This document shows positions 12,513 through 28,154 of a stretch of DNA of 31,543 bases, one piece after another. Each line of letters begins with the position of its first letter. Within the stretch, counting starts at the first letter, position 1. A program made the position numbers and the translations under genes. The stretch comes from a virus, in the IMG/VR virus record IMGVR_UViG_3300025132_000172, positions 1 through 31,543 of that record; one strand, given 5' to 3'. Below the pieces are notes generated by a model. It had not been told where the DNA came from. It did not search any database and saw only the letters and a program-made list of their open reading frames with translations.

Positions 12513-15401
12513 TTATCCTGGTGGTAAAGGCTGACCTTTTGGTGTATTTAAGGCTGATTGCTTTCTAGAGTCTACTTGCTTCTTCTTATAAATAGAAGGG
12601 AACATTTGATTCCAAAAAGTACGTTGTCTGTAAAGACTATATGCAGAAACTTCAGTAGGATTTGGTCCTGTACCTGGGTGATACATCTGAAAACGTACAT
12701 GACCTGGGTTACTGGATAGACCAGTAGAGCTTTGTCCTTGGATACTGTTAATATCTGAACCATCGCCTTGTAGTCCTATTGTTTGTCCTCTTGTTAGTTG
12801 AGTACCTTCTGTTAAAGAAGTACGAGCTAAATTAGAAATACGGATTAAAGAACCTTTTTTGTTGTTAGTACCACCTATACCTGCACTTATTACTACGTTT
12901 ACACCAAACTTTTCATCTTCTCCTACATAAACAACAGTACCTGAAATAGGTGTTGGTACATTATTAGCTAGTTGTTTATCTCCTACTCTTTCAAGAACAA
13001 AGTCAATAGCTTGTGAATCACCGTCTGAAACAGGAGCCATTCTTATACCAACATCAGAAATGTTATGACCACTCATTATATCTACAGAGTTTATAAGCGA
13101 AGCTATTTGTCTTAACCTTGCATCTGCTTCTTCAGGGAATAAACCACGATCATAGGTATTACCTTCATAAAGGTTAAGCTGTGATTTAAGAGCTTCCCAA
13201 GCTTTTACGTCACCATCGGTAGCTGTTTCAGAGATGTTATGTAACCATTTCCTAGCTTGTTCACTAACAACAATATCTTCACCACCACTTAAAGCATGAC
13301 TAAATTCTTTAAGATAAGGCTCAGGTATAACAATTGTTCTGTCTAAAACTTCACTTTTATATAGATCACCTTTACCTGCATAAGCCGTAGCAGCTTGCAT
13401 AGACCAACCAAAAGCACTATCTGTATCTGTTATTTCTATAACGTGAGGTTTAGTTATTACCTGACTAGTTTTACCTTTTATTTGCTTAGTTTCATAACCT
13501 AATTCAACTATTCCTAAATCTGGTACTTTTTTAGTTTCACCAGTACGAACATTTGTCCAAGCATTTATATCAGATAAAGTAGGATCGTTCTCTACCATTC
13601 TTATAACTTCTTGCTGAATCCTAGCTCTATTCTGTGCATTAGTAATATCTACACCGTTTAAAACTGCTTCAGTATATTTCTTATTTAGGATTGGTTCGAG
13701 AGTACTTTTTAAAGTAAGTTGCATTCTAGTTTTAGCTTCTTTAATTAAGCGTTCAGCATCCTTAGCACTTTGTCCACCATGTGTTCTTTTTCGCTTTATT
13801 TCTTCGTCTTCACCAAGAATACGATCTAAGTCATCATTAATAATCTTATAATCACTAGCTACATTAGCAGATATAGCAGATCTATTTGCTCCTATAAGTT
13901 TAGCCCTAGCTTCACCAAATAGTTGTTGTACCTTTACTGCAGCAGTAGTTCCTGCTACTTGTTCAGAAATGTGTTGAGGTATTTCTGTATCCTGTGTTAA
14001 CGCTATATATTCTCTAGCATCTTGTAGAATTCGTTCTTCTTTTAATGGTGGCATTTCTGTACCACCTATAGGGTACATATCATCTACCATTTTTAGTGCT
14101 TCTGTTAGAGAAACACCTGGAGGTAATAACTGAGCTTCAGCTGCAGCTTTCATCTCTTCTTTAACTTTTTCTCTTTGCTGTTGTACTATGTCTTCAAAAT
14201 CAGTGCCTGTGTAGTTATGATATTTTAACCAAAACTTATTACCTTCTTTTTCTAATTTGTGGTCAATCTCTTTTTTACCTCTAGCTACTTTTCTGTCATA
14301 TTGAGTATTAACAAATTCAGCCATCTGTCCAGCTTTATAGAAGGCTTGTTCTAGATGCTTCCTCATTGAAACACTTTCTGAATCTTGTAACTTTAAGAAT
14401 GGTATACCATCAAATTTTAAGTCTTTTAAAGAATCAAAAATCATTTTCATATTGCCCCACTCACCTATATCGTTTAACTGATTATTATCAGTATCTATAA
14501 ATATGGAACCATTTTTAATAGCTTGTGCTAAAAATTCTGTAGCTTCTTTCTTGTCATAACCTCTAATATCTATTAAATAGTTTCTATAATCAACTATTCC
14601 TTTTGGGATATTAGTAGCAGCTAATGCTTCACCATTTGGAACTTTTGAGAATATACCAGCAGTATTCCAACTAGCTTCTAACTTTTTTAATGCTGTTTTT
14701 TGATCAGTTTCAATTACAAACTCTTTAGATTTTAGGAAAGCTGCTTGTTTTAAATCCCAAGATACAGAAGCTATATACTTATCTATCTTTGCTGTTCTAA
14801 AATTTTTAGGTATCTCTTCAGATCCTTGTAGGATTTGGTTAGCTTTTTCTTGTATTGCTAAACCTCTTTGAGTTTCATCTAAACGTGCTAAATGATTTAT
14901 ATCCTTTGAACCCCAAGCTTTAAGCTCCAGAGCTGCATTCCTTCCTACATCATCAGAAACAGCATCCCAATAGTAGAAGTTAACCCAAGGATCATTTAAT
15001 CTGTTTTCTTTTGCTTTTTCAAACTCTCCTTTCTTTTCTAATAGTTGTGTAGCTTTTGCGTTTTTCTCACCTGCGTCATAGGCTTTAGCAGCTGACTTAT
15101 AAAAGTTTTCAGTTTGACGTAGTTTATCTGCTTTTTCTTTAGCTCCTTTTTTATAAGTCTCATGAATCCTTCCTGTTGCGTTATCCCAAACACCACCCTC
15201 TTGTAAGAAATTTTCTATTTGTTGGAAAGCACTAAAAGCAGCTTTATCTGGCTGAAAAGAAGAATGATCAAGTAATTGACCACCACCTCTACGTTGCTGT
15301 TGATATGGCTGATCAGGAGCTTTTACCTGATCTGGTTCTGCAGGTCTAACCTCTTGACTACGTCTTTGTCTCTGAGGTGTAATACCGAAACTACTGGTCA
15401 T
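12513..15401 (-). CDS. 15: Internal virion (ejection) protein, T7 gp15-like, with degenerate M23-like C-terminal domain
   Basis: A 962-residue protein between the gp14-like and gp16-like genes, the gp15 position (T7 gp15 is about 747 residues). Residues 1-60 are Gln/Arg/Pro-rich and low in complexity; residues 60-700 are mostly charged helices. The C-terminal part, about 775-910, looks like an M23 (LytM-type) peptidase fold: HNISD (His779, Asp783), GTVVYVG, GVNVVISA, GSLIRISNL, LTEGTQLTRGQTIGLQGDG and GHVRFQM. The usual catalytic YAHL is ISNL here, and the zinc HxH is H-V-R (901-903), so two expected histidines are gone and it is probably not an active metallopeptidase. Starts in an ATGA overlap with gp14. 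Expected to be ejected with gp14 and gp16. Confidence 0.85.
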   Translation of the reverse strand: MTSSFGITPQRQRRSQEVRPAEPDQVKAPDQPYQQQRRGGGQLLDHSSFQPDKAAFSAFQQIENFLQEGGVWDNATGRIHETYKKGAKEKADKLRQTENFYKSAAKAYDAGEKNAKATQLLEKKGEFEKAKENRLNDPWVNFYYWDAVSDDVGRNAALELKAWGSKDINHLARLDETQRGLAIQEKANQILQGSEEIPKNFRTAKIDKYIASVSWDLKQAAFLKSKEFVIETDQKTALKKLEASWNTAGIFSKVPNGEALAATNIPKGIVDYRNYLIDIRGYDKKEATEFLAQAIKNGSIFIDTDNNQLNDIGEWGNMKMIFDSLKDLKFDGIPFLKLQDSESVSMRKHLEQAFYKAGQMAEFVNTQYDRKVARGKKEIDHKLEKEGNKFWLKYHNYTGTDFEDIVQQQREKVKEEMKAAAEAQLLPPGVSLTEALKMVDDMYPIGGTEMPPLKEERILQDAREYIALTQDTEIPQHISEQVAGTTAAVKVQQLFGEARAKLIGANRSAISANVASDYKIINDDLDRILGEDEEIKRKRTHGGQSAKDAERLIKEAKTRMQLTLKSTLEPILNKKYTEAVLNGVDITNAQNRARIQQEVIRMVENDPTLSDINAWTNVRTGETKKVPDLGIVELGYETKQIKGKTSQVITKPHVIEITDTDSAFGWSMQAATAYAGKGDLYKSEVLDRTIVIPEPYLKEFSHALSGGEDIVVSEQARKWLHNISETATDGDVKAWEALKSQLNLYEGNTYDRGLFPEEADARLRQIASLINSVDIMSGHNISDVGIRMAPVSDGDSQAIDFVLERVGDKQLANNVPTPISGTVVYVGEDEKFGVNVVISAGIGGTNNKKGSLIRISNLARTSLTEGTQLTRGQTIGLQGDGSDINSIQGQSSTGLSSNPGHVRFQMYHPGTGPNPTEVSAYSLYRQRTFWNQMFPSIYKKKQVDSRKQSALNTPKGQPLPPG

Positions 15402-16252: not shown

Positions 16253-19200
16253 TTAGCCGTACTTCCTCGCAACGTCAAAATACAGTCCAGTCCATTCTAA
16301 AGCTACAAACTTAGCTTGGTCTATACTGTTGTTTACTACTTCTATAGTAACTTGGTCGTTCTTACTTTGGATATAAGCTCTGAATTTAGCTTCTTCAAAG
16401 TCTGATACTTGACCAATAATAATATTTCCATTTAAAGGATCTCTACGATCAAATTCATAAGTACTCTTATCTCTAAACTTAGGTGTTACGTCAACTGTGA
16501 AGTATCTAGCATCATTGTAGTAAACATCCAAATATCGTAACTGAAGGCGACCAGTACGATTACCGATAAAAGTATTGTCTGTAGCTGTTTTACTGTAGGG
16601 CATAAGCTGTGGCGGCTCAAACTTGAAAGAGAACTGCTCACCGAAGACATAAGAGCACTGCCTAAAATCCCCAATACTGCTAAGGGTAAAAGAATTGACA
16701 CCCGCAGGAATAGCATCAGCCACGATCCAGCGTTTCTTAGCTTCGTTAGCATCGTTCTTATCCTGTTTAATAACAACGAATTGACTCGGATTAACTGTAT
16801 AGAAATTAGCAGGTAGAGTTACTGTTGTAATATTTGTCAGGTTATTGTAAGCAAACGTAGGTAAACCTATATCAGTCTCAATAGAATCTGATAATTGTCT
16901 ATCAACTAAGAATAGATCACTACTTTCTTGTGGTGGTCTAGAAGCATTAAGTGCTTCCAAGTAGTACTGACTATTACTATTTTCTACATATTTAGATAGC
17001 TTAAATAAAGTACCTTCTACAAAGTCACACCAATAAATACTCTTATTAGGGAAAGTCCATTTAGACCAAGCATTCTGTCTGTTAGTTAAAGAACCACCAG
17101 CTGCTTCCCAAAAGAATTGATAAACATATAAAGCATCAGGATCATCCTTACTAAGTACTACTAAATATTGATCAGTTCTACTAACAGCTAGAGAGTCTAC
17201 ATTTTTAGGTATGTACTTAGGTACTGTTTCTGTGATAACTGCAGTCTGACCTAAGTTAATACCAACAGTACGATCAGTTGTTATAAAAGTATGTAGTCCT
17301 GTGTAGTCACCTTCTTTAACAGGGAATATAACTTGTGGTCCTACTTGCTGTGGTTTAACTTGAGATTCCATACTAATGGAACTAATACGACCTACAGAAG
17401 CTGTTTCAGGAGAGAAAGTTACGTTATCACCTGAATATAGTCGGAACTGGTTTTCATTAGAGAATAGAACTAATTCATCTTGCTGCTGTAAAGCGTAGTT
17501 AAGTACAGCAACATCATTACTAACTGCGGTTAAATCGATAGGATCATTATCTAAAACTTGTAGAGCTGATTGTCTCCAGAAGTTGAAATAGGAACCAGCT
17601 TCACTAAGAATAATATTCTCACCACTTATTACACCAAGTCTATTTTTAAAGAAAACTAAGTCATTTACTTTCTTATTTAGAAATGAAGGTTGTTTTACTT
17701 CATCGTTATCACCAGATAAACGAGAGGTCCATCCTGGTACATCTAAACTAAAACCTCCATCTGTATAAGCAGCACCACTAAAAGGTTGGAAAGTAAACTT
17801 AACTACACCACTATCGTTTCTATAGTAAATGAAAGAATGAGGCATTGACGCATCTTCTAGCTGCCCTTGTGTACCCCAACCTGATACTTCTTCCCAAGTA
17901 CCTCTAGCAAAAGTACCAGCAACAGTAGTGTTTTCAGCGTTAAATTTTAAGTAATAAGAACTCTTATCAGCAGCTCCGTCTGGAGCAACAATAATTGTGT
18001 ATCCCTCCCAAGAAGTAGAAGGTAACTCTGTAATACTAGTAACCCTACTTGAGAAACCAGACATCAAAGCATTACCTCTAGCATCAGAAGCTACAAAACT
18101 TTTGAAATAGCGAGAAGCATTAGTTAAACCAACAATTAATTGAGAATCTTTTACTTCAAAAGTAAGTTCACCACCTGTATCTAGATCATCTAAACCATGA
18201 GCAAGTGTAAGTGTAGTTCCTGTAAACGTTAATGTTGTACCTGCACCAGTAGCAGTAGCCTTTTGACTTAAAGTTACCGTGTTACCAGATACAGCTGTAA
18301 CCCAAGTACCTGCTGCTATTCCTGTACCTGTAACAGTACGACCTACAACTACATCAGTCATACTGCTGATATTTTTAACTGTTGTTAAATCTGCCGTTGT
18401 ATCTGCTGTAGGAGTTACAGCTCCTGAGTTAGCTGTAGCATTAACAGCAGCACCTGCAGAATTAACAAGGGTAAAGCTATCTTCACCTACAGTTCCTACA
18501 AAAGTATTAGCTGGTATACCTGCTCCTGTTATAACTTCCCCACCATGAACACGCTTTATTAATGAACTATGTACTTCACTAATAGTTGCATTAGCGTTAG
18601 TAGTTTTTCCTACAACTGTATCTGAATAACTTTGTAGTCTTGAAGCAATTTCAGCAGAACTTACAACATTAGCATTACCAACATCATCTGTTAATGATGG
18701 GGTCATATAATGACCGTTAATTTTAGTACCGTTATCTAGTTCTATATCAATTGAATAAAGAGTATCGTAATCAACTAATTTAACCCATACTTGTGCTTTT
18801 ATAGGCTGATAAGCAGAACTTATAGATCCTATATTGTATCTAGTTAAAACTTCAGAAGCATCAAAAGTTACATCTTTTTGTATGTTAGTTACAAATACAT
18901 AGTCTTGAAAGGAAGTAGCTCTAAACCTATCTCTAGCTCTACCTGCACCTCTTAAGTATTCAAGATTAGTATTAGTTACATTTTGAAATCCTTGCTCAAT
19001 AGGTATAACACTAGGTACTGCTCCACTAAGAGGTTCAATATTAGATACACCAGAAACAAACGTATAGTTAGATTCAATAGTTAAGGTAACACTATTATTT
19101 GTAGCAGTAGCAGCTTTATCTAAAGTAATAGTATTAGTTCCTATATCTACAATTTTTGTACCAGTAGGTATTCCTGTTCCGCTTATTTCTGATCCTATAA

Positions 19201-19570
19201 ATATATCAGTTACGCTATTAACACTACTAATTGTATAACTATTATTTGCAACATTACCAGTCTTAGAAACAGTTCTACTATCATCAACTACAAATAGAAT
19301 AAAACGCTCATCAGTACTACGGTTATAAACATATACCCATGCTTCATCCCATTTAATAGTACCTACTAAACTATTACCACCAGAGTTCTTAGTAAGTGTA
19401 TCAACCCTTTTAACAGGAACAGAACCTAGTCTTTTCTTTAAACCTTCTACAAGATCACAGTTACCATTTTCAAGTGTTTTAGCAAAACCAGGAAGTATGA
19501 AACTATTTGCTTGTTGATTGACACCTTTGTTTAAAGGTCCAATAATTTGACTAAAGATTTCTTTTGCCAT
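16253..19570 (-). CDS. 12: Tail tubular protein B (nozzle), T7 gp12-like, with three inserted repeats
   Basis: An 1105-residue protein, against about 794 in T7. The start MAKEIFSQIIGPLNKGVNQQ and segments such as GRARDRFRATSFQDYVFVTN, DLVFFKNRLGVISGENIILSEAG and QQDELVLFSNENQFRL are typical of the T7-type nozzle that closes the tail tube. The extra length comes mainly from three related beta modules of about 60 residues, at residues 104-164, 321-381 and 392-450. Each has a core like V.G..I.GTGIP.GT.V......T.TL...A.AT followed by alternating small residues. They probably decorate the outside of the tail. It is coupled to gp11 by a TAATG overlap and followed with no gap by gp14. Confidence 0.92.
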   Translation of the reverse strand: MAKEIFSQIIGPLNKGVNQQANSFILPGFAKTLENGNCDLVEGLKKRLGSVPVKRVDTLTKNSGGNSLVGTIKWDEAWVYVYNRSTDERFILFVVDDSRTVSKTGNVANNSYTISSVNSVTDIFIGSEISGTGIPTGTKIVDIGTNTITLDKAATATNNSVTLTIESNYTFVSGVSNIEPLSGAVPSVIPIEQGFQNVTNTNLEYLRGAGRARDRFRATSFQDYVFVTNIQKDVTFDASEVLTRYNIGSISSAYQPIKAQVWVKLVDYDTLYSIDIELDNGTKINGHYMTPSLTDDVGNANVVSSAEIASRLQSYSDTVVGKTTNANATISEVHSSLIKRVHGGEVITGAGIPANTFVGTVGEDSFTLVNSAGAAVNATANSGAVTPTADTTADLTTVKNISSMTDVVVGRTVTGTGIAAGTWVTAVSGNTVTLSQKATATGAGTTLTFTGTTLTLAHGLDDLDTGGELTFEVKDSQLIVGLTNASRYFKSFVASDARGNALMSGFSSRVTSITELPSTSWEGYTIIVAPDGAADKSSYYLKFNAENTTVAGTFARGTWEEVSGWGTQGQLEDASMPHSFIYYRNDSGVVKFTFQPFSGAAYTDGGFSLDVPGWTSRLSGDNDEVKQPSFLNKKVNDLVFFKNRLGVISGENIILSEAGSYFNFWRQSALQVLDNDPIDLTAVSNDVAVLNYALQQQDELVLFSNENQFRLYSGDNVTFSPETASVGRISSISMESQVKPQQVGPQVIFPVKEGDYTGLHTFITTDRTVGINLGQTAVITETVPKYIPKNVDSLAVSRTDQYLVVLSKDDPDALYVYQFFWEAAGGSLTNRQNAWSKWTFPNKSIYWCDFVEGTLFKLSKYVENSNSQYYLEALNASRPPQESSDLFLVDRQLSDSIETDIGLPTFAYNNLTNITTVTLPANFYTVNPSQFVVIKQDKNDANEAKKRWIVADAIPAGVNSFTLSSIGDFRQCSYVFGEQFSFKFEPPQLMPYSKTATDNTFIGNRTGRLQLRYLDVYYNDARYFTVDVTPKFRDKSTYEFDRRDPLNGNIIIGQVSDFEEAKFRAYIQSKNDQVTIEVVNNSIDQAKFVALEWTGLYFDVARKYG

Positions 19571-20208
19571 TAGCGATCAAGAATATCAGGACCAAAAGTT
19601 GTTAATACACGACCACCATAAAGATCATTAGGACCACTAATAAAGTTATGGTTCTGTGCTAAATCTTCAGTACGTTTAAGAGTTTGAAGAGCTTGTACTT
19701 CATCCTCTTGTGTATATGCTTCTATCGTAGATGAAGTTAGCACTCTATTAGCAAACATTCTTCCAGCTCTAATCATTATATATCTTCTACCTGTTTCAGG
19801 TATTTCATCCCAAGCTAGCTCTGCTACTACTTCTGCTTCAATATCACTCTGCGTTAAACCTGTTAAAGCAACACCTAAACTTTTCCTTAAGTCATAAGTA
19901 TTTTGAATACGATCATAAAGTTTTGTACCTCTTAAAACAAATCTTTGAGAGGGATATGCAAGTGGATTGAAACGTACAGCAAGAGCGTTAGCAGGAAGAG
20001 AAGAATGCCCATTAGAGTCTAAGGGTATGTTTTTATAAATATAGGTATTCCACGACCATCCCATACTTTGTACTTCTGTTATTACTTCATCTATTGTTGT
20101 GTCTGCAATACTTACATCTCCTGTTAAGGGAGGAGTTAATGAGCTTACAGGAGCTTCTCCAATAATAGAAAGAAGTGTATTAACTGCTTTTAGTTTAGTA
20201 GTTGCCAT
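19570..20208 (-). CDS. 11: Tail tubular protein A, T7 gp11-like
   Basis: A 212-residue protein (T7 gp11: 196). The N-terminal LKAVNTLLSIIGEAPVSSL followed by a repetitive W-containing segment (VQSMGWSWNTY), and AELAWDEIPETGRRYIMIRAGRMFANRV near residues 128-155, are typical of the gp11 adaptor that joins portal to nozzle in T7-type tails. It is the first gene after the capsid terminator, and its stop overlaps the gp12 start (TAATG). This is the same gene order and coupling as T7 genes 11 and 12. Confidence 0.92.
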   Translation of the reverse strand: MATTKLKAVNTLLSIIGEAPVSSLTPPLTGDVSIADTTIDEVITEVQSMGWSWNTYIYKNIPLDSNGHSSLPANALAVRFNPLAYPSQRFVLRGTKLYDRIQNTYDLRKSLGVALTGLTQSDIEAEVVAELAWDEIPETGRRYIMIRAGRMFANRVLTSSTIEAYTQEDEVQALQTLKRTEDLAQNHNFISGPNDLYGGRVLTTFGPDILDR

Positions 20209-22403: not shown

Positions 22404-22604
22404 TTAACCGATTCTAAGTGAGAGATCGTCACCAATCTTAACTCTTTTACCAGCTTTAGCAGCCTGTTGAAAAGTTTCATAAACTGCAGGTTTCTCTTTC
22501 TTTAACTTTTCAATTAATTGAGAGTATTCATCTAAGGGAGCTTCTTCCTTAGTTACCTCCACCACCTTCTGTTGTGGTTTCTTGCTCTGTCCTGACTGAG
22601 TCAT
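22404..22604 (-). CDS. Small helical protein between portal and scaffold, unknown function
   Basis: A 66-residue, lysine- and glutamate-rich protein. Its first 19 codons overlap the end of the portal gene in another frame. It ends GKRVKIGDDLSLRIG, two bases before the scaffold start. Residues 25-52 (YSQLIEKLKKEKPAVYETFQQAAKAGK) form a probable helical hairpin. No family recognised. The tight fit between portal and scaffold and the non-random C-terminal half, which lies outside the overlap, support a real gene; a role in assembly is inferred only from position. Confidence 0.7.
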   Translation of the reverse strand: MTQSGQSKKPQQKVVEVTKEEAPLDEYSQLIEKLKKEKPAVYETFQQAAKAGKRVKIGDDLSLRIG

Positions 22605-24147
22605 TTTCTGCTTTTAATAGGGCGGCTTGCTTTGCAGGATCATTTTGAGGATCTTGCGCAGCAGCTTGTTGCTGCATCATCATAGCTCTTTGTTGCTCTT
22701 CCATCATCAATTCTTCTTCTGATTTAATCAGCTTGTAAGTTTCTAAACCATCAGAAGCTGCAAGTCTTGTTATAAGTTCTCTGCTATTTAAGAATTTAGC
22801 CATAGCCTCTGGACCTATTGTCTGAGCTAGGGTTTGGATGAATTGAATAAGTTTTGCTTTATCGTTACCTCTACCTAAAGCATCTAATCCTGTAGTAATT
22901 CTAGGCTTAACAACATCCTTAGGAAGTTTCGGTAATCTACCCTGACGTTCCATTAAAGCCATCTTTCTATGAACTAGTGGTAGCTGTAGTTCAACACTAA
23001 GAACTGAGTACACTCCACCTAATCCTGTTTCTAATTCCTGTGCAACCATTCTGATTTCTTCTGCAGTAACCCTGTCTCTACCAGAAGCACCAGCTTGAAT
23101 AGCACTATTAAGTAAGAAAGCAAAGCTAAGTCTTTGTTCAATTCTTGCAATCGTATTTAAGGCAACCGTAAGATCCGCTTGCTTCTGCATTTGCAGGGGA
23201 GCTACGTCATTAGGATTACCAGCCACAATGCTACCATTAGCGGCTCTAGCCAGTGAATCTGGTCGTGTAGTTCCATTTGGGTTACATAAGAATATAATCT
23301 TAGCGGCAGCCGCACTACCCTCAACGATTGCTTTTGAGAGATACTCTAAAGATTTAAGGTCACCTAGTATCTCTTCACAATAAGAACGTCCGTAAGCTTC
23401 ATGAGCTACCCTAAACATCCTTAATGGGATCCAAGGAGACTTTTCTATAGGAGTTGAACCTTCCTTACCTATACGTTTTCCATAAGCCTCTTGATACCAA
23501 TTACATTTATCTTTCTTATAGTTCCAAGAAATATGAGTAAAGACAAAGACTGTTTGATCTGTAAACTTATTATCAGAAGTCTTAGGAGCTACACCAGCAG
23601 GTAGTACTTCAGGATTAACTTCCTCTCTTAATACAACTTCTAAAATATTACCTTCTGGATCTCTTCTTAAACAAAAAGATTTAAGTGGATAAACTCTTGT
23701 ACCATTCTCAGCTATGTAGAGTAGAGCGTTACCACTAACAATGAGATGTTTAAGAGCTTCAAATAATGCTGTTCTATCTCCTGACTCTTCTATATCTCTC
23801 ATCACTGCTCTTTCCATTAGAGACAGTTGCTGATCAAATTGAGACTGAACATCTTTATAGTTATCTAACTCCTGTTGGAGTTTCATATCATCTACAGACA
23901 ACCTAAAGAATGCTTGATTAGGAGGTAGTAAAGCTATTAAAAGTTTTGACGCTAAGTTATTAACACCTCTGGCTCCCAAGCCTTGATAGGTAGTAGTAAT
24001 TTTTGTGTAAAGGTTTTTACCAGAACTTCTATCGTTATCTGTAATAAGAGTAGGTAGTGTGTATTTACTACACTCAATGCCCCTATCTAAATAAATAGCC
24101 TTTTCAGGTTCTAGTGCTTGATATAAAGCTTGTGCAGTGCTAGACAT
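22549..24147 (-). CDS. 8: Portal (head-tail connector) protein, T7 gp8-like
   Basis: A 532-residue protein, almost exactly the T7 gp8 length (536). Typical segments: an N-terminal region followed by YQGLGARGVNNLASKLLIALLPPNQAFFRL (54-83), DRTALFEALKHLIVSGNALLYI (122-143), PWIPLRMFRVAHEAYGRSYCEEILGDLKSLEYLSKAIVEGSAAAAKI (about 238-285) and GRDRVTAEEIRMVAQELETGLGGVYSVLSVELQLPL (about 353-388). The C-terminal tail is Gln/Met-rich (MMMQQQAAAQDPQNDPAKQ). The portal forms the dodecameric vertex through which DNA is packaged and ejected. Its start overlaps the end of the gp7.3-like gene by 8 bases, and its end overlaps the 66-aa gene. Confidence 0.96.
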   Translation of the reverse strand: MSSTAQALYQALEPEKAIYLDRGIECSKYTLPTLITDNDRSSGKNLYTKITTTYQGLGARGVNNLASKLLIALLPPNQAFFRLSVDDMKLQQELDNYKDVQSQFDQQLSLMERAVMRDIEESGDRTALFEALKHLIVSGNALLYIAENGTRVYPLKSFCLRRDPEGNILEVVLREEVNPEVLPAGVAPKTSDNKFTDQTVFVFTHISWNYKKDKCNWYQEAYGKRIGKEGSTPIEKSPWIPLRMFRVAHEAYGRSYCEEILGDLKSLEYLSKAIVEGSAAAAKIIFLCNPNGTTRPDSLARAANGSIVAGNPNDVAPLQMQKQADLTVALNTIARIEQRLSFAFLLNSAIQAGASGRDRVTAEEIRMVAQELETGLGGVYSVLSVELQLPLVHRKMALMERQGRLPKLPKDVVKPRITTGLDALGRGNDKAKLIQFIQTLAQTIGPEAMAKFLNSRELITRLAASDGLETYKLIKSEEELMMEEQQRAMMMQQQAAAQDPQNDPAKQAALLKAENDSVRTEQETTTEGGGGN

Positions 24148-24628
24148 TTAGTTTACTACTTCCTTTTGAAGATTTAGTGCTTCCACCAAAGGCTAAAGCA
24201 GAGTTTGCTTGGACTCCTGTTCTAAGTTTAAGCGGACTACCTACTCGTTTCCTAGTTTTAGTACTAACATTCTGACCGCCTTGCTGTCGCTGCATAGCAG
24301 TTTGTAGGTTCTTTTGCTGAATAGCTAAGCTTGACTGTGCTCTTTGTTGGTTGATCTGCTTAATAGCTGATTGTTGAGCAGCAGTAGCAGCTGCACTTTG
24401 GGCAGCAGTACGTTCTTTAATAGCTGCTATATCTGCAGCGTGTTGATCAGCTCTATCTGATTGCTCAGATTTTAGCTGTGCAATCTTATTTATAGAAGCT
24501 GTTTTTGTTTCTTCAGCTTGCTGTCTAGCTGCAGCAGCTTGTTTCTTAGCACCTTTAGCGGCTTGCCAACCTGAATAAAGTTGAGCACCTCCTAAAATTA
24601 AAGAACCTAATACTATGGGGGCGACCAT
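24140..24628 (-). CDS. Putative virion or tail assembly protein, T7 gp7.3-like by position
   Basis: A 162-residue protein just before the portal gene, where T7 has gene 7.3 (a small ejected tail-assembly protein). Residues 3-20 are apolar and could insert in membrane. Residues 24-118 are a long Ala/Gln-rich coiled coil with regularly spaced Lys and Arg. Residues 123-162 are basic and Gly/Ser-rich (KTRKRVGSPLKLRTG near 124-138, ending SSKLNV), recalling the basic Ser/Gly-rich tail of T7 gp7.3 that ends GINI. The similarity is one of composition and place; I cannot claim homology. An AGGT lies 8 bases before the ATG. It overlaps the portal start by 8 bases. Confidence 0.6.
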   Translation of the reverse strand: MVAPIVLGSLILGGAQLYSGWQAAKGAKKQAAAARQQAEETKTASINKIAQLKSEQSDRADQHAADIAAIKERTAAQSAAATAAQQSAIKQINQQRAQSSLAIQQKNLQTAMQRQQGGQNVSTKTRKRVGSPLKLRTGVQANSALAFGGSTKSSKGSSKLNV

Positions 24629-24645
24629 AATTAATACCTAGTAAA

Positions 24646-24819
24646 TTAGTTGTACTTAGTTTCCTCTTGAAGATTGTACTTGTCTTTTAAATGACGTACA
24701 ACTGAAACTTGTCCAGCATTAAACCAAATAAGTTTCTCTTCCATACTAAGATCAGGAGCCTTATCTGGATAGAGGTCATCCAAATATTCTAAAATGTCTT
24801 TGTCAAGAATAGGAATCAT
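24646..24819 (-). CDS. Conserved-looking 57-aa small protein
   Basis: A short gene of 57 codons: ATG at 24819, TAA at 24646-24648. It begins MIPILDKDILEYLDDLYPDK and continues with PDLSMEEKLIWFNAGQVSVV, then a helical charged tail. The pattern of a short acidic start, an IWF.AGQ core and VVR.L is one I associate with small proteins of marine podoviruses, though no function is known to me. The start overlaps the TGA of the repeat-protein gene (ATGA), and the gap to the next gene is only 17 bases, so it fills what would otherwise be an empty 187-base space. A helical fold with an exposed aromatic cluster is likely. Confidence 0.7.
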   Translation of the reverse strand: MIPILDKDILEYLDDLYPDKAPDLSMEEKLIWFNAGQVSVVRHLKDKYNLQEETKYN

Positions 24820-26009
24820 ATGTTAATAGCTACAGGATCAACTTCTGTTTCTTCAGTACCACTATAGCCACCAAATCTTTGACGTTTAAGTTTAGTTCGC
24901 TGGACCCCAGGTCTTCTAACAGTATCTGCAGCACTTTCATCTACTGCTCCTTCATCTAAACCTGGACCAGATCTAGCCGATTCTAGTTCTGCGTTTATTG
25001 ATTGTTGTTTAGCTAGAGCAATTGAAGCTGTACCAGACTTATCAAGGACTGCTTTTTGTTCTGCTATTTCTTGTTCTGCATAACCAGCAGATGTTATTTG
25101 TTCTTGTTGCGCCTTCGTTGCTTCTGTCATTGCAGCTACCTGTGCATCAAGATCAGCTTGTGCTAGACCTTCAGCTGTTAATAAGTCAGCTTCAGCTGCT
25201 TGCTGTTCAGCAAAGGCTGCTTCAAAAGCTTCTTGTGCTTTTTCAGCTGCAGTTATACCAGTTATATCTTCATAAAGATTCACAATACCTCCTACTATAT
25301 CTTCACCTAAGTCCCAAATACCTTCACCTATATCACCCACTGTATCTAGAATTCCTTGACCTATATCACCTGCTATATCAAATAAATCTTCCCCAACATC
25401 CCATGCAGTTTCAAATACGTCAGTAGTTACATCCCATATACCACTACCAACATCTTGAAGAGTATCATAAATACTACCTCCAAGATCTAAACCTGTTTGA
25501 ACAACATCTTGACCAACGTTATAAATACCTTCACCAACATTTAAAACAGTTTCACCAACATTACCTGCAGCTTCAAGAATACCTTCACCTAAATCACCTA
25601 CAACCCCTAAGACATCTTCACCAACATTTACTAAATTTTCTGGAATGTTTAAAACAAATTCACCAACATCTCCAGCTACATCTAAAACAGTTCCACCAAC
25701 ATCTCCAGCTACATCTAAAACAGTTTCACCAATATCTCCTACAACGTCTACACCTGTTTCAACAACATCAGTAGCAACGTCCCAAACTGTTTCTCCTACG
25801 TCAGAAACTACATCTATAACAGTATCAGCCACATCAGTAACTACATCAACAACAGTATCAACAGCACCTGTTACTTGATCCCAAACCCATTTATGAAACC
25901 AACGCATCTCCATACCAGAAAATGCTAAGTCACCAGACCAATCATAAAGAGGTGATTCTAAAGGTACTACTCTATGATTGGGATTAAAACTGTCTGGTAA
26001 TCTAAGCAT
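24816..26009 (-). CDS. Acidic protein built of eleven-residue repeats, function unknown
   Basis: A 397-residue protein from the ATG at 26009, which overlaps the TAG of the reductase small subunit; an in-frame TTG at 26039 is less likely. Residues 1-45 hold several Trp (MEMRWFHKWVWDQV). Residues 46-248 consist of about 18 units of 11 residues, typified by GDVGETVLDVA, strikingly without Lys or Arg, rich in Val, Asp, Gly, Glu and Thr. Residues 254-345 form an Ala/Glu/Gln coiled coil. Residues 360-380 are basic (RRPGVQRTKLKRQR), and the tail ends VAINI, like the GINI end of T7 gp7.3. It lies ahead of the portal gene, where T7 has gp6.7-7.3, so it may be a virion or ejected protein. No family recognised. 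Confidence 0.8.
   Translation of the reverse strand: MLRLPDSFNPNHRVVPLESPLYDWSGDLAFSGMEMRWFHKWVWDQVTGAVDTVVDVVTDVADTVIDVVSDVGETVWDVATDVVETGVDVVGDIGETVLDVAGDVGGTVLDVAGDVGEFVLNIPENLVNVGEDVLGVVGDLGEGILEAAGNVGETVLNVGEGIYNVGQDVVQTGLDLGGSIYDTLQDVGSGIWDVTTDVFETAWDVGEDLFDIAGDIGQGILDTVGDIGEGIWDLGEDIVGGIVNLYEDITGITAAEKAQEAFEAAFAEQQAAEADLLTAEGLAQADLDAQVAAMTEATKAQQEQITSAGYAEQEIAEQKAVLDKSGTASIALAKQQSINAELESARSGPGLDEGAVDESAADTVRRPGVQRTKLKRQRFGGYSGTEETEVDPVAINI
25266..25874. repeat. Tandem 33-bp repeats encoding eleven-residue units
   Basis: The protein repeat is visible in the DNA as a 33-bp period. The closest pair is identical over 32 bases, 25661-25692 and 25694-25725. Other units have diverged to different degrees, which implies older and more recent duplication. 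Confidence 0.85.
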
Positions 26010-26712
26010 AGCTTGGTAGATCTTGGTTACTTGTCTCAAAGAACGCTGGCATTCTAGCTCTCTGAGTATCTTTTAGACCCTTCGCCTTTCCAGCATACAT
26101 CAGATTATCACTTTGATCTAGCCAGAACTGTCTATTAAAGTAACGATCTTCTGAAGTACCTAAAGGTTGTAGTACCCAGTTAATAGTGGCTTTCCTAAGT
26201 TTGTCCAGAGAAGGACTCCAGCGTAAACCCATATCAGCACATACGAGAGAATTAGCGGCAACGTGTATCTGTTCGTCTCTGGAAATATCAGCCGATACTG
26301 TGCGTAGACCAGAATCACCAAGATAACGAAACATTGGAAGTAGAACGAAGAAGATAGCACGTTCAGCTACTAAGGCTTTGAGGATGGTGTGATCTGGGTG
26401 GGAAGTCCAGGCATCTCTGATTCTGAAAGCCTCTGCCTCCGCTTTCGGATCTTCACCATGAGCATCGATAACAAAGTTAAGAGCAATGTCATGTCTTATT
26501 TCATCCTGAACGTTTGATAAGAGTAATTTTCTAGATGCCTCTGGAACTTCAGTAAGTGCTTCTTGGATAAAATCCCCCACTGGTAATTCCATATGCCGTA
26601 TTGCCAAAGCACGTTTAACAACATCGACTGCTTCATCCTTTATAAATCCTTTGCTAGTTTTTACAGGAGTCCAAGTCCTTTTTCTAGACAATAGCTTATC
26701 GTATGGGTTCAT
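26002..26712 (-). CDS. nrdB: Ribonucleotide reductase class I small (beta) subunit
   Basis: A 236-residue ferritin-like protein from the ATG at 26712, which overlaps the stop of the large-subunit gene (ATGA); a TTG at 26727 is the alternative. Metal ligands can be read as Glu42, Glu71-x-x-His74 (DEIRH), Glu117 and Glu147-x-x-His150 (DEQIH), the EX(28-30)EXXH pair pattern of class I beta subunits. The residue seven after Glu71, which is the radical Tyr122 in E. coli NrdB, is Leu78, so no tyrosyl radical can form there. It is shorter than cellular NrdB (about 320-375). It pairs with the large subunit to make deoxynucleotides for phage DNA synthesis. Cyanopodovirus reductases of this kind were once called class II and later re-read as class I. 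Confidence 0.88.
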   Translation of the reverse strand: MNPYDKLLSRKRTWTPVKTSKGFIKDEAVDVVKRALAIRHMELPVGDFIQEALTEVPEASRKLLLSNVQDEIRHDIALNFVIDAHGEDPKAEAEAFRIRDAWTSHPDHTILKALVAERAIFFVLLPMFRYLGDSGLRTVSADISRDEQIHVAANSLVCADMGLRWSPSLDKLRKATINWVLQPLGTSEDRYFNRQFWLDQSDNLMYAGKAKGLKDTQRARMPAFFETSNQDLPSYA

Positions 26713-28154
26713 TCTGCACAATCGCAAGTTGGAGTGTTATCATCGGTCAAAATCTGACCACCTTCAGCCAGAATTTCACTCAAATAATCGTCAACATCTA
26801 CTTCATCTAAAGCAGCATATACGTCAGATTTATCTTGAGTATCAGGCATTACCTGTAAAGAATAGTATAGACTTTTTAGCGGAGAATTTAACCATCTTGC
26901 CATAAATTCCCTATTCATTTCTGTCATATCTGACCACCAATTCATTGAGATGGCATGAGCCTTATGGGTTTTATCCATCATGACTTGCCATTCTGCATTT
27001 AATTCAAAGAAAGTATCCCAACCTACTTCTTGTGCGATCTCACACTTAGGATTAAATTTATAACTTGTTACTCCAAGTGTAGAACTATCACGATCTATTT
27101 CTCTTGAGATTGGTGGAGATATTTCAGGTGAAGTTGTATAACCTTCTCTATCTGTATAGCGATAAGCACAAGACGCTGTAGGAGCAATAGTAAAAGCTCT
27201 AGACATACCAAATCTTTCAGCTACTTTAGTTGCTTCTTTATAACCACACTCCAAAGCAACAACGATTGCATGAGCCATAGTTATACCAGATGGAGGCTGT
27301 GTATGTGGATGGAGATTTCTAAATCTTAAAGCTGATACAAAAGCGTTATAAGATACACCTTCAATTGCTAATAGATTAGATAAACCTAATACTCCTAAAC
27401 CTACTTGCTTATCTTTTCTCTTATAAATACCTGACTGATCAGCACCAGTTTGTTGATAAAGAGAACAAAGAAATTCCATACCATGAACAAAAGCACTAGG
27501 TATCTCACTAACAGCTCTAGTACCAGCCAAATTTATATGAGAAAGAAGGCAAGTATCTCTGGACTTAATTAAAATTTCTTGACAAACATTGTGATAAATT
27601 CTTTCACCTTCATCATCGTATTGTTTCTTAACAATCCATATATCACCTTTTCTAGCTCCTTCCATTATTGCTTTTAAAACATCAGGCTTATTAATTACCT
27701 CATGATCAACATTGACACAACGTTTAACCCAAGGTATTCGACCACGATCATACTGAATAAACTCAATAACATCAGCATGATCCCAATCGCAATGGACACA
27801 AATTGCACCATTTCTGTAGGTACCACCTCTTCTAAGGACTTCGTTGAACTTACTATAGATCTCCATGAATCCGCATGGTCCTGACGCAACCATCCCATGT
27901 TCATTCTTTGTACCTTTAGGACGCAACTTACTTAAATGTATAGCAACACCTGCCCCATAACGTAAAGCTTTAGAAGCGAACAAAAAACTAGCCTCAATAC
28001 CATCCTCATGTTCGTCCATTGTATCTTCAACAACGAATACAGTACATGACATCGGATAGCGTCTTGTAGGCTCTTTTAGCCAGCTATCTACACGACCTGT
28101 TACTGCTAATGCTGGAGTGAAATGATCTGTTAATTGAATTTCTTTGAGTTTCAT
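26709..28154 (-). CDS. nrdA: Ribonucleotide reductase class I large (alpha) subunit, compact
   Basis: A 481-residue catalytic subunit that reduces ribonucleoside di- or triphosphates. Landmarks: PMSC with Cys37 and TCLLSHINLA with Cys202 (redox pair), N-V-C-Q-E with Asn189, Cys191 (thiyl) and Glu193 in the finger loop, LGVLGLSNLLAIEG (253-266), TIAPTASCAYRY (322-333), the tyrosine pair Tyr430-Tyr431 that carries the radical from the beta subunit in class I, and a C-terminal C-x-C (477, 479) in place of the usual CxxxxC. There is no N-terminal ATP cone, so overall-activity control by dATP is probably absent. It starts in the ATGA overlap of the MazG-like gene and ends in the ATGA that begins nrdB. 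Confidence 0.93.
   Translation of the reverse strand: MKLKEIQLTDHFTPALAVTGRVDSWLKEPTRRYPMSCTVFVVEDTMDEHEDGIEASFLFASKALRYGAGVAIHLSKLRPKGTKNEHGMVASGPCGFMEIYSKFNEVLRRGGTYRNGAICVHCDWDHADVIEFIQYDRGRIPWVKRCVNVDHEVINKPDVLKAIMEGARKGDIWIVKKQYDDEGERIYHNVCQEILIKSRDTCLLSHINLAGTRAVSEIPSAFVHGMEFLCSLYQQTGADQSGIYKRKDKQVGLGVLGLSNLLAIEGVSYNAFVSALRFRNLHPHTQPPSGITMAHAIVVALECGYKEATKVAERFGMSRAFTIAPTASCAYRYTDREGYTTSPEISPPISREIDRDSSTLGVTSYKFNPKCEIAQEVGWDTFFELNAEWQVMMDKTHKAHAISMNWWSDMTEMNREFMARWLNSPLKSLYYSLQVMPDTQDKSDVYAALDEVDVDDYLSEILAEGGQILTDDNTPTCDCAE

Follow-up and report, generated by a model that had tools for sequence, protein, structure and literature searches.

A protein with a long acidic hendecad array is encoded upstream of the portal gene in a P-RSP2-like phage

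Introduction

In phage T7, small genes directly ahead of the portal gene encode virion components of the channel that delivers the genome. One of these components, gp6.7, links the core to the portal and at a later stage strengthens the extended channel, while cryoEM places the C-terminal loop (residues 84–98) of the other, gp7.3, in six copies at the junction of nozzle and adaptor, with its basic N-terminus in the channel near the DNA (PMC11784390). Both proteins are ejected on infection, and gp7.3 has been proposed as a scaffold for nozzle–adaptor assembly (PMC11784390). Counterparts of both were found in the virions of a T7-like Pseudomonas phage (PMC4517105). Outside the enterobacterial phages they are hard to identify, as has been stated for Peru-2 and ICP3: no counterparts were readily identifiable, and small ORFs upstream of the portal were suggested to be analogous (PMC13320782).

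Helices with 11-residue repeats are known from unrelated proteins. The lipid-binding helices of alpha-synuclein and perilipin form a long straight hydrophobic stripe and carry lysines on the polar face. The DNA pilot protein H of phiX174, a DNA-conduit protein, also has helices that contain hendecads (PMC7354561).

Here we describe a protein with a long acidic array of such repeats, encoded upstream of the portal gene of a T7-like phage. The protein is real and unusual, and it has a clear place in phage biology. Synteny and shared C-terminal tails delimit a family of this kind in P-RSP2-like phages, in which the present member stands out by a helix of envelope-spanning length. If it is part of the virion, it offers a natural variant in length and charge for asking how podoviruses build a trans-envelope conduit.

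Results

Gene neighbourhood

The window, meaning the entire 31.5-kb stretch of DNA that was analysed, is the whole virus record of a T7-like phage. Its minus strand carries portal, scaffold, capsid, tail, nozzle and ribonucleotide reductase (RNR) genes, and the nozzle (16253–19570) is of the T7 type (Pfam Phage_nozzle), with the adaptor at 19570–20208. As the portal shares ~86% identity with its counterpart in Prochlorococcus phage P-RSP2, the closest isolate and an outlier cyanopodovirus (PMC9860041), the host is likely a marine picocyanobacterium. The gene studied here, which we call the slot gene after its position, lies in the order RNR-beta / slot gene / 57-aa ORF / 162-aa ORF / portal:

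26002..26727, minus strand: RNR beta subunit (phrog_6799, E = 1e-118); synteny anchor
24816..26009, minus strand: slot gene, encoding a 397-aa protein; shares 8 nt with the end of RNR-beta and 4 nt with the start of the next ORF
24646..24819, minus strand: 57-aa small ORF, conserved (phrog_4970, no assigned function); synteny anchor
24140..24628, minus strand: neighbouring 162-aa ORF, product ending ..GSSKLNV; in some relatives it bears the slot gene's N-terminal module
22549..24147, minus strand: portal (head–tail adaptor; phrog_449, E = 1e-164)

The extent, strand and start originally predicted for the slot gene all hold, the ATG at 26009 being supported by conservation with the P-RSP2 protein PRRG_00038, which begins there. 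T7 encodes gp6.7 and gp7.3 at the same genomic position. This supports the earlier hint, drawn from gene position, at a tail or ejected component, with a virion location suggested by analogy.

The 57-aa ORF is mostly 65–80% identical among relatives, although it is flanked by two fast-evolving genes, and it shares 38–47% identity with krakvirus S39C11 and pelagiphage HTVC120P. Judged by these comparisons, it is a conserved T7-like gene without an assigned function.

Modules of the slot protein

The slot protein is modular:

25875..26009, minus strand: N-terminal module, residues 1–45 (MLRLPDSFNPNHRVVPLESPLYDWSGDLAFSGME followed by the Trp-rich WFHKWVW); matches P-RSP2, and relatives L093–L096 have the same layout
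25266..25874, minus strand: acidic hendecad/heptad array, residues 46–248; no Lys or Arg, net charge −46
24969..25265, minus strand: Ala/Gln/Glu-rich helix, residues 249–347; helical in the AlphaFold2 model and alignable with relatives
24819..24920, minus strand: conserved C-terminal tail, residues 364–397 (RRPGVQRTKLKRQRFGGYSGTEETEVDPVAINI); found with an HMM of the relatives

The N-terminus is 48% identical to that of P-RSP2 over 48 aa. The Trp-rich segment and the basic tail noted at first inspection are both present, at residues 37–43 and 364–380, respectively. When an HMM was built from the tails of relatives, with the window protein left out, it recovered the window tail at E = 4e-6 and ranked it ahead of 5000 shuffled decoys; the tail's mean identity with the family tails is 40% over 34 aa. 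The AlphaFold2 monomer is helical over most of residues 33–347, with high confidence confined to ~253–347 (pLDDT mostly ~90 or above) and values of only ~40–70 across the array.

The acidic array

Residues 46–248 include 31 Asp, 15 Glu, 35 Gly and 43 Val, and lie within a stretch free of Lys and Arg that spans residues 41–256. Autocorrelation, composition and shuffling bear out the predicted 11-residue period and the lack of basic residues: at lag 11 the identity is 0.41 and the hydropathy autocorrelation 0.71, and either value was reached in 0 of 20,000 shuffles. Since hydropathy is negatively correlated at lag 2 (−0.49) and positively at lags 4 and 7, the pattern is alpha-helical and not beta. 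A beta-solenoid is ruled out by the lag-2 anticorrelation together with the helical period.

The hydrophobic period of the array is 3.62. Taking a hendecad amphipathic helix to be a predicted helix with a period of 11/3 to 18/5 over many units, the array falls into this class, in support of the long amphipathic hendecad helix proposed at the outset, which AlphaFold2 also predicts at low to moderate confidence. With a period near 3.6, the hydrophobic stripe would barely wind around an undistorted helix. In a helical-wheel projection, most acids lie at 120–270 degrees, Val/Ile/Leu are opposite, and most Gly fall between. If the array formed one straight helix, its 203 residues at 1.5 Å each would measure ~30 nm.

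Lags 18 and 29 match lag 11 in strength, and segmentation gives 20 seven-residue and 15 four-residue steps, equal to ~15 hendecads and ~5 extra heptad steps. The hendecad pattern stands, but this count replaces the original one of about 18 eleven-residue repeats.

At the DNA level, TRF reports a 33-bp unit repeated 6.4 times at 25650–25860. A near-identical pair of units had been placed at 25661–25725; the pair is real, with 32 of 33 positions identical, but its coordinates are 25659–25691 and 25692–25724 (minus strand). This adjacent pair suggests turnover of the array. Among six units, 34 of the 88 codon pairs that encode the same residue differ synonymously, suggesting that the protein pattern is under selection. 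A single other copy of the array was found, 100% identical, in IMG/VR contig 3300002488_000794 (L002/L007); no long array of another length was found among the contigs retrieved by portal and N-terminus searches.

A family of slot proteins

Whole-protein searches returned a sole match, an identical copy in another IMG/VR contig. No close relatives were found among isolate phages (tblastn with the whole protein, L056 or L037), no relatives in GTDB genomes, and no family match in Pfam, NCBIfam or the PDB. Relatives were gathered instead via the portal, which yielded 80 contigs with portals of 84–100% identity. The order RNR-beta / slot / 57-aa / 162-aa / portal is kept in all contigs that span the interval, and also in P-RSP2. 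These loci encode 52 distinct slot proteins of 166 to 397 aa, the window's being the longest. Their last 34 residues share 63% mean identity and the remainder 32%; the gene is fast-changing. They have in common an Ala/Gln/Glu helix and a C-terminal tail of the type GGYGGT..NPTGLNI; their N-terminal part varies. The family is defined here by gene position and C-terminal tail, and the window protein has both. The earlier view that it resembles no named family is correct for Pfam, NCBIfam and the PDB, but by synteny and sequence the protein is a member of a modular family of P-RSP2-like phages, not an orphan.

A hendecad helix occurs in a minority of slot proteins (L010, L012, L014, L015, L018, L056 and L059). 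It is Val-rich, lies at the start, spans 46–79 residues and contains Lys/Arg, and these proteins lack the N-terminal module. Against the window helix, L056 scores 115 (maximum of 500 phase-preserving shuffles, 78) and L012 scores 100 (maximum of 500, 64), while shorter hendecad helices are borderline in such shuffles. This is good evidence, though short of proof, for a common origin of the arrays: the 7-residue steps of the window array depart from the strict 11-residue phase on which the shuffle relies. If the origin is indeed shared, the window array would be an expanded form of these shorter helices that has lost its basic residues. The original description of a polar face made purely of Asp and Glu is true of the window array but not of the same helix in relatives; as some of these have a shorter hendecad helix with Lys/Arg, the purely acidic state is probably derived.

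A module of the type HDxKF..P.FYVDPL...F.GV opens ten slot proteins (L009, L026, L032, L035, L036, L038, L048, L052, L070 and L073) and, in other relatives, the neighbouring 162-aa gene, which implies that the two genes exchanged parts or inherited them in common. What follows the N-terminal module differs: an R/V-rich segment in P-RSP2 and L082, a Cys/Trp-rich one in L009 and L035, a hydrophobic, transmembrane-like one in L070, L073, L093 and L106–L108, and the array in the window. The N-termini of L106–L108 are intermediate, as judged by eye. Searching with the N-terminus added four more P-RSP2-type relatives (L093–L096), none with a long array. The P-RSP2 slot protein itself (PRRG_00038, HQ332139) shares the gene position, the N-terminal module and an A/E/Q-rich helix, but has ~20 R/V-rich residues in place of the long acidic array. 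It has neither the array nor a clear GLNI tail, and both are thus dispensable.

In relatives (L009, L027, L032, L035 and L064), the product of the 162-aa gene ends in RVGTP..LRT.LEIQS...GGLNV, and some versions carry the HDAKF N-terminal module of the slot gene. This suggests paralogy or module exchange with the slot gene.

Comparison with T7 and other systems

Like the slot protein, gp7.3 is encoded just upstream of the portal and has a helix with a period of ~3.6 (hydrophobic period 3.64 over residues 1–42), followed by a Gly-rich C-terminus. This ends in GGGINI, where the slot family has a tail of the ..GLNI type. gp7.3 differs in being strongly basic and only 99 aa long; its location in the portal–tail channel serves as a model for the slot protein. 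gp6.7 occupies the same genomic slot and is an ejected minor virion protein that bridges portal and core, but has 88 aa and no helix array. Both T7 proteins score below decoys in hmmsearch (gp7.3 in both directions), hhalign gives gp7.3 and the slot protein a probability of 2%, and the slot protein has no Pfam or NCBIfam hit. Orthology to gp7.3 or gp6.7 is unsupported by these profiles. Because the layout matches but profile methods find no homology, we say that the slot protein works like gp7.3, not that it is a gp7.3. A C-terminal pattern G..[LI]N[IV] is found in 4 of 228 ORFs from seven phage regions, all four portal-adjacent; it is only suggestive, because it was chosen after seeing the proteins and the end of the window slot protein does not fit it.

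The alpha-synuclein and perilipin helices share the 11-residue repeat with the array, but their Lys-bearing polar face is unlike it and they are unrelated. Protein H belongs to an unrelated phage and has only three hendecads, followed by heptads, and an inner surface of amides and guanidinium groups rather than acids; the comparison is one of physical principle only.

Discussion

We judge the chances about even that the slot protein belongs to the portal–tail DNA channel of the virion as a minor and probably ejected component, its amphipathic helix having expanded and turned acidic. It would act as a modular tether, with a short N-terminal motif, a variable hydrophobic or amphipathic middle, an Ala/Gln/Glu helix and a Gly-rich C-terminal tail. 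By analogy with the gp7.3 C-terminus in the adaptor–nozzle junction, the conserved ..GLNI-type tail would dock on the phage tail, and the variable middle would contact a hydrophobic surface, either a membrane or neighbouring helices. In the window phage this middle may have grown by tandem duplication to ~203 residues, losing all Lys and Arg. The likeliest role of the long helix would be to leave with the ejected proteins and to form a lining or an extension of the channel through the envelope, with its hydrophobic stripe against neighbours or lipid and its acids facing DNA or water. In other phage tails, an acidic lining of the channel is believed to ease the passage of DNA, and the acidic face could do the same here.

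This channel role is favoured by the kept synteny, with overlapping genes leading into the morphogenetic cluster, by the conserved tail and the related shorter hendecad helices, and by the position of gp6.7 and gp7.3 and the period of gp7.3. Against it count the lack of detectable homology to either T7 protein, the P-RSP2 slot protein without array or clear GLNI tail, and the low AlphaFold2 confidence over the array; the change from a Lys-containing to a purely acidic helix is also awkward for binding to DNA or anionic lipid.

The main rival, which we regard as unlikely, is that a short amphipathic or hydrophobic linker expanded into low-complexity sequence that the protein tolerates, with the N and C ends doing the work and no length-dependent job for the long helix. 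The nearest relatives do without an array, one adjacent 33-bp pair is nearly identical, and slot proteins vary widely in length and are poorly conserved in their variable part, all of which would suit a linker. Yet the hydrophobic stripe keeps its phase along all 203 residues, across 7- and 11-residue steps alike, the array has no Lys or Arg at all, and the synonymous codon differences suggest selection on the protein pattern. Of similar, rather low probability is an assembly factor that acts no later than tail assembly and helps to attach the nozzle or adaptor to the portal, with the helix as a spacer. The scaffold role proposed for gp7.3 (PMC11784390) and the fact that the tail, not the helix, is the conserved element fit such a factor, but gp7.3 is still ejected on infection, and mounting does not need a 30-nm amphipathic helix.

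More doubtful is a bolder form of the channel role, in which several acidic helices would thread the portal–tail channel and assemble at ejection into an envelope-spanning tube with an acidic, DNA-repelling lumen, its length tuned by gain and loss of 33-bp repeats. A non-virion protein, such as an acidic mimic of DNA that targets host or defence proteins, appears improbable: 46 acidic and no basic residues among 203 would suit a mimic, but the gene sits in the late morphogenetic cluster, the same helix in relatives contains Lys/Arg, and the conserved tail resembles portal-adjacent virion proteins. Least credible is a true tape-measure protein captured from a long-tailed phage, since the array's matches to PHROG tape-measure families (E = 1e-6 to 1e-9) are equalled by the reversed array (E = 3e-9, same families) and reflect composition and periodicity only, and the genome encodes a T7-type nozzle, with no long-tail genes noticed in the 31.5-kb record. 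That control rules out tape-measure homology as an outcome of the profile search proposed for the array; the likeness lies in Gly/Val-rich amphipathic helical stretches of similar pattern in proteins of another morphotype.

Other features of the genomes

In the P-RSP2 record (HQ332139, L003:4545-6671), the RNR alpha and beta genes are each split into two unannotated ORFs, whereas both are intact in L095, whose slot protein is identical to that of P-RSP2; either a sequencing error or recent decay may explain the split. Contig IMGVR_UViG_3300030382_001515 (57 kb; L056 / L013) contains two portal genes, of which one has a TAA in frame, and may be a chimeric or joined assembly or represent two phages. 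In the window, the internal protein at the gp15 position (12513-15401, minus strand) matches Peptidase_M23 weakly close to its C-terminus (E = 2e-4, short of the Pfam cut-off); this may be a domain for cutting the cell wall that is packed within the virion.
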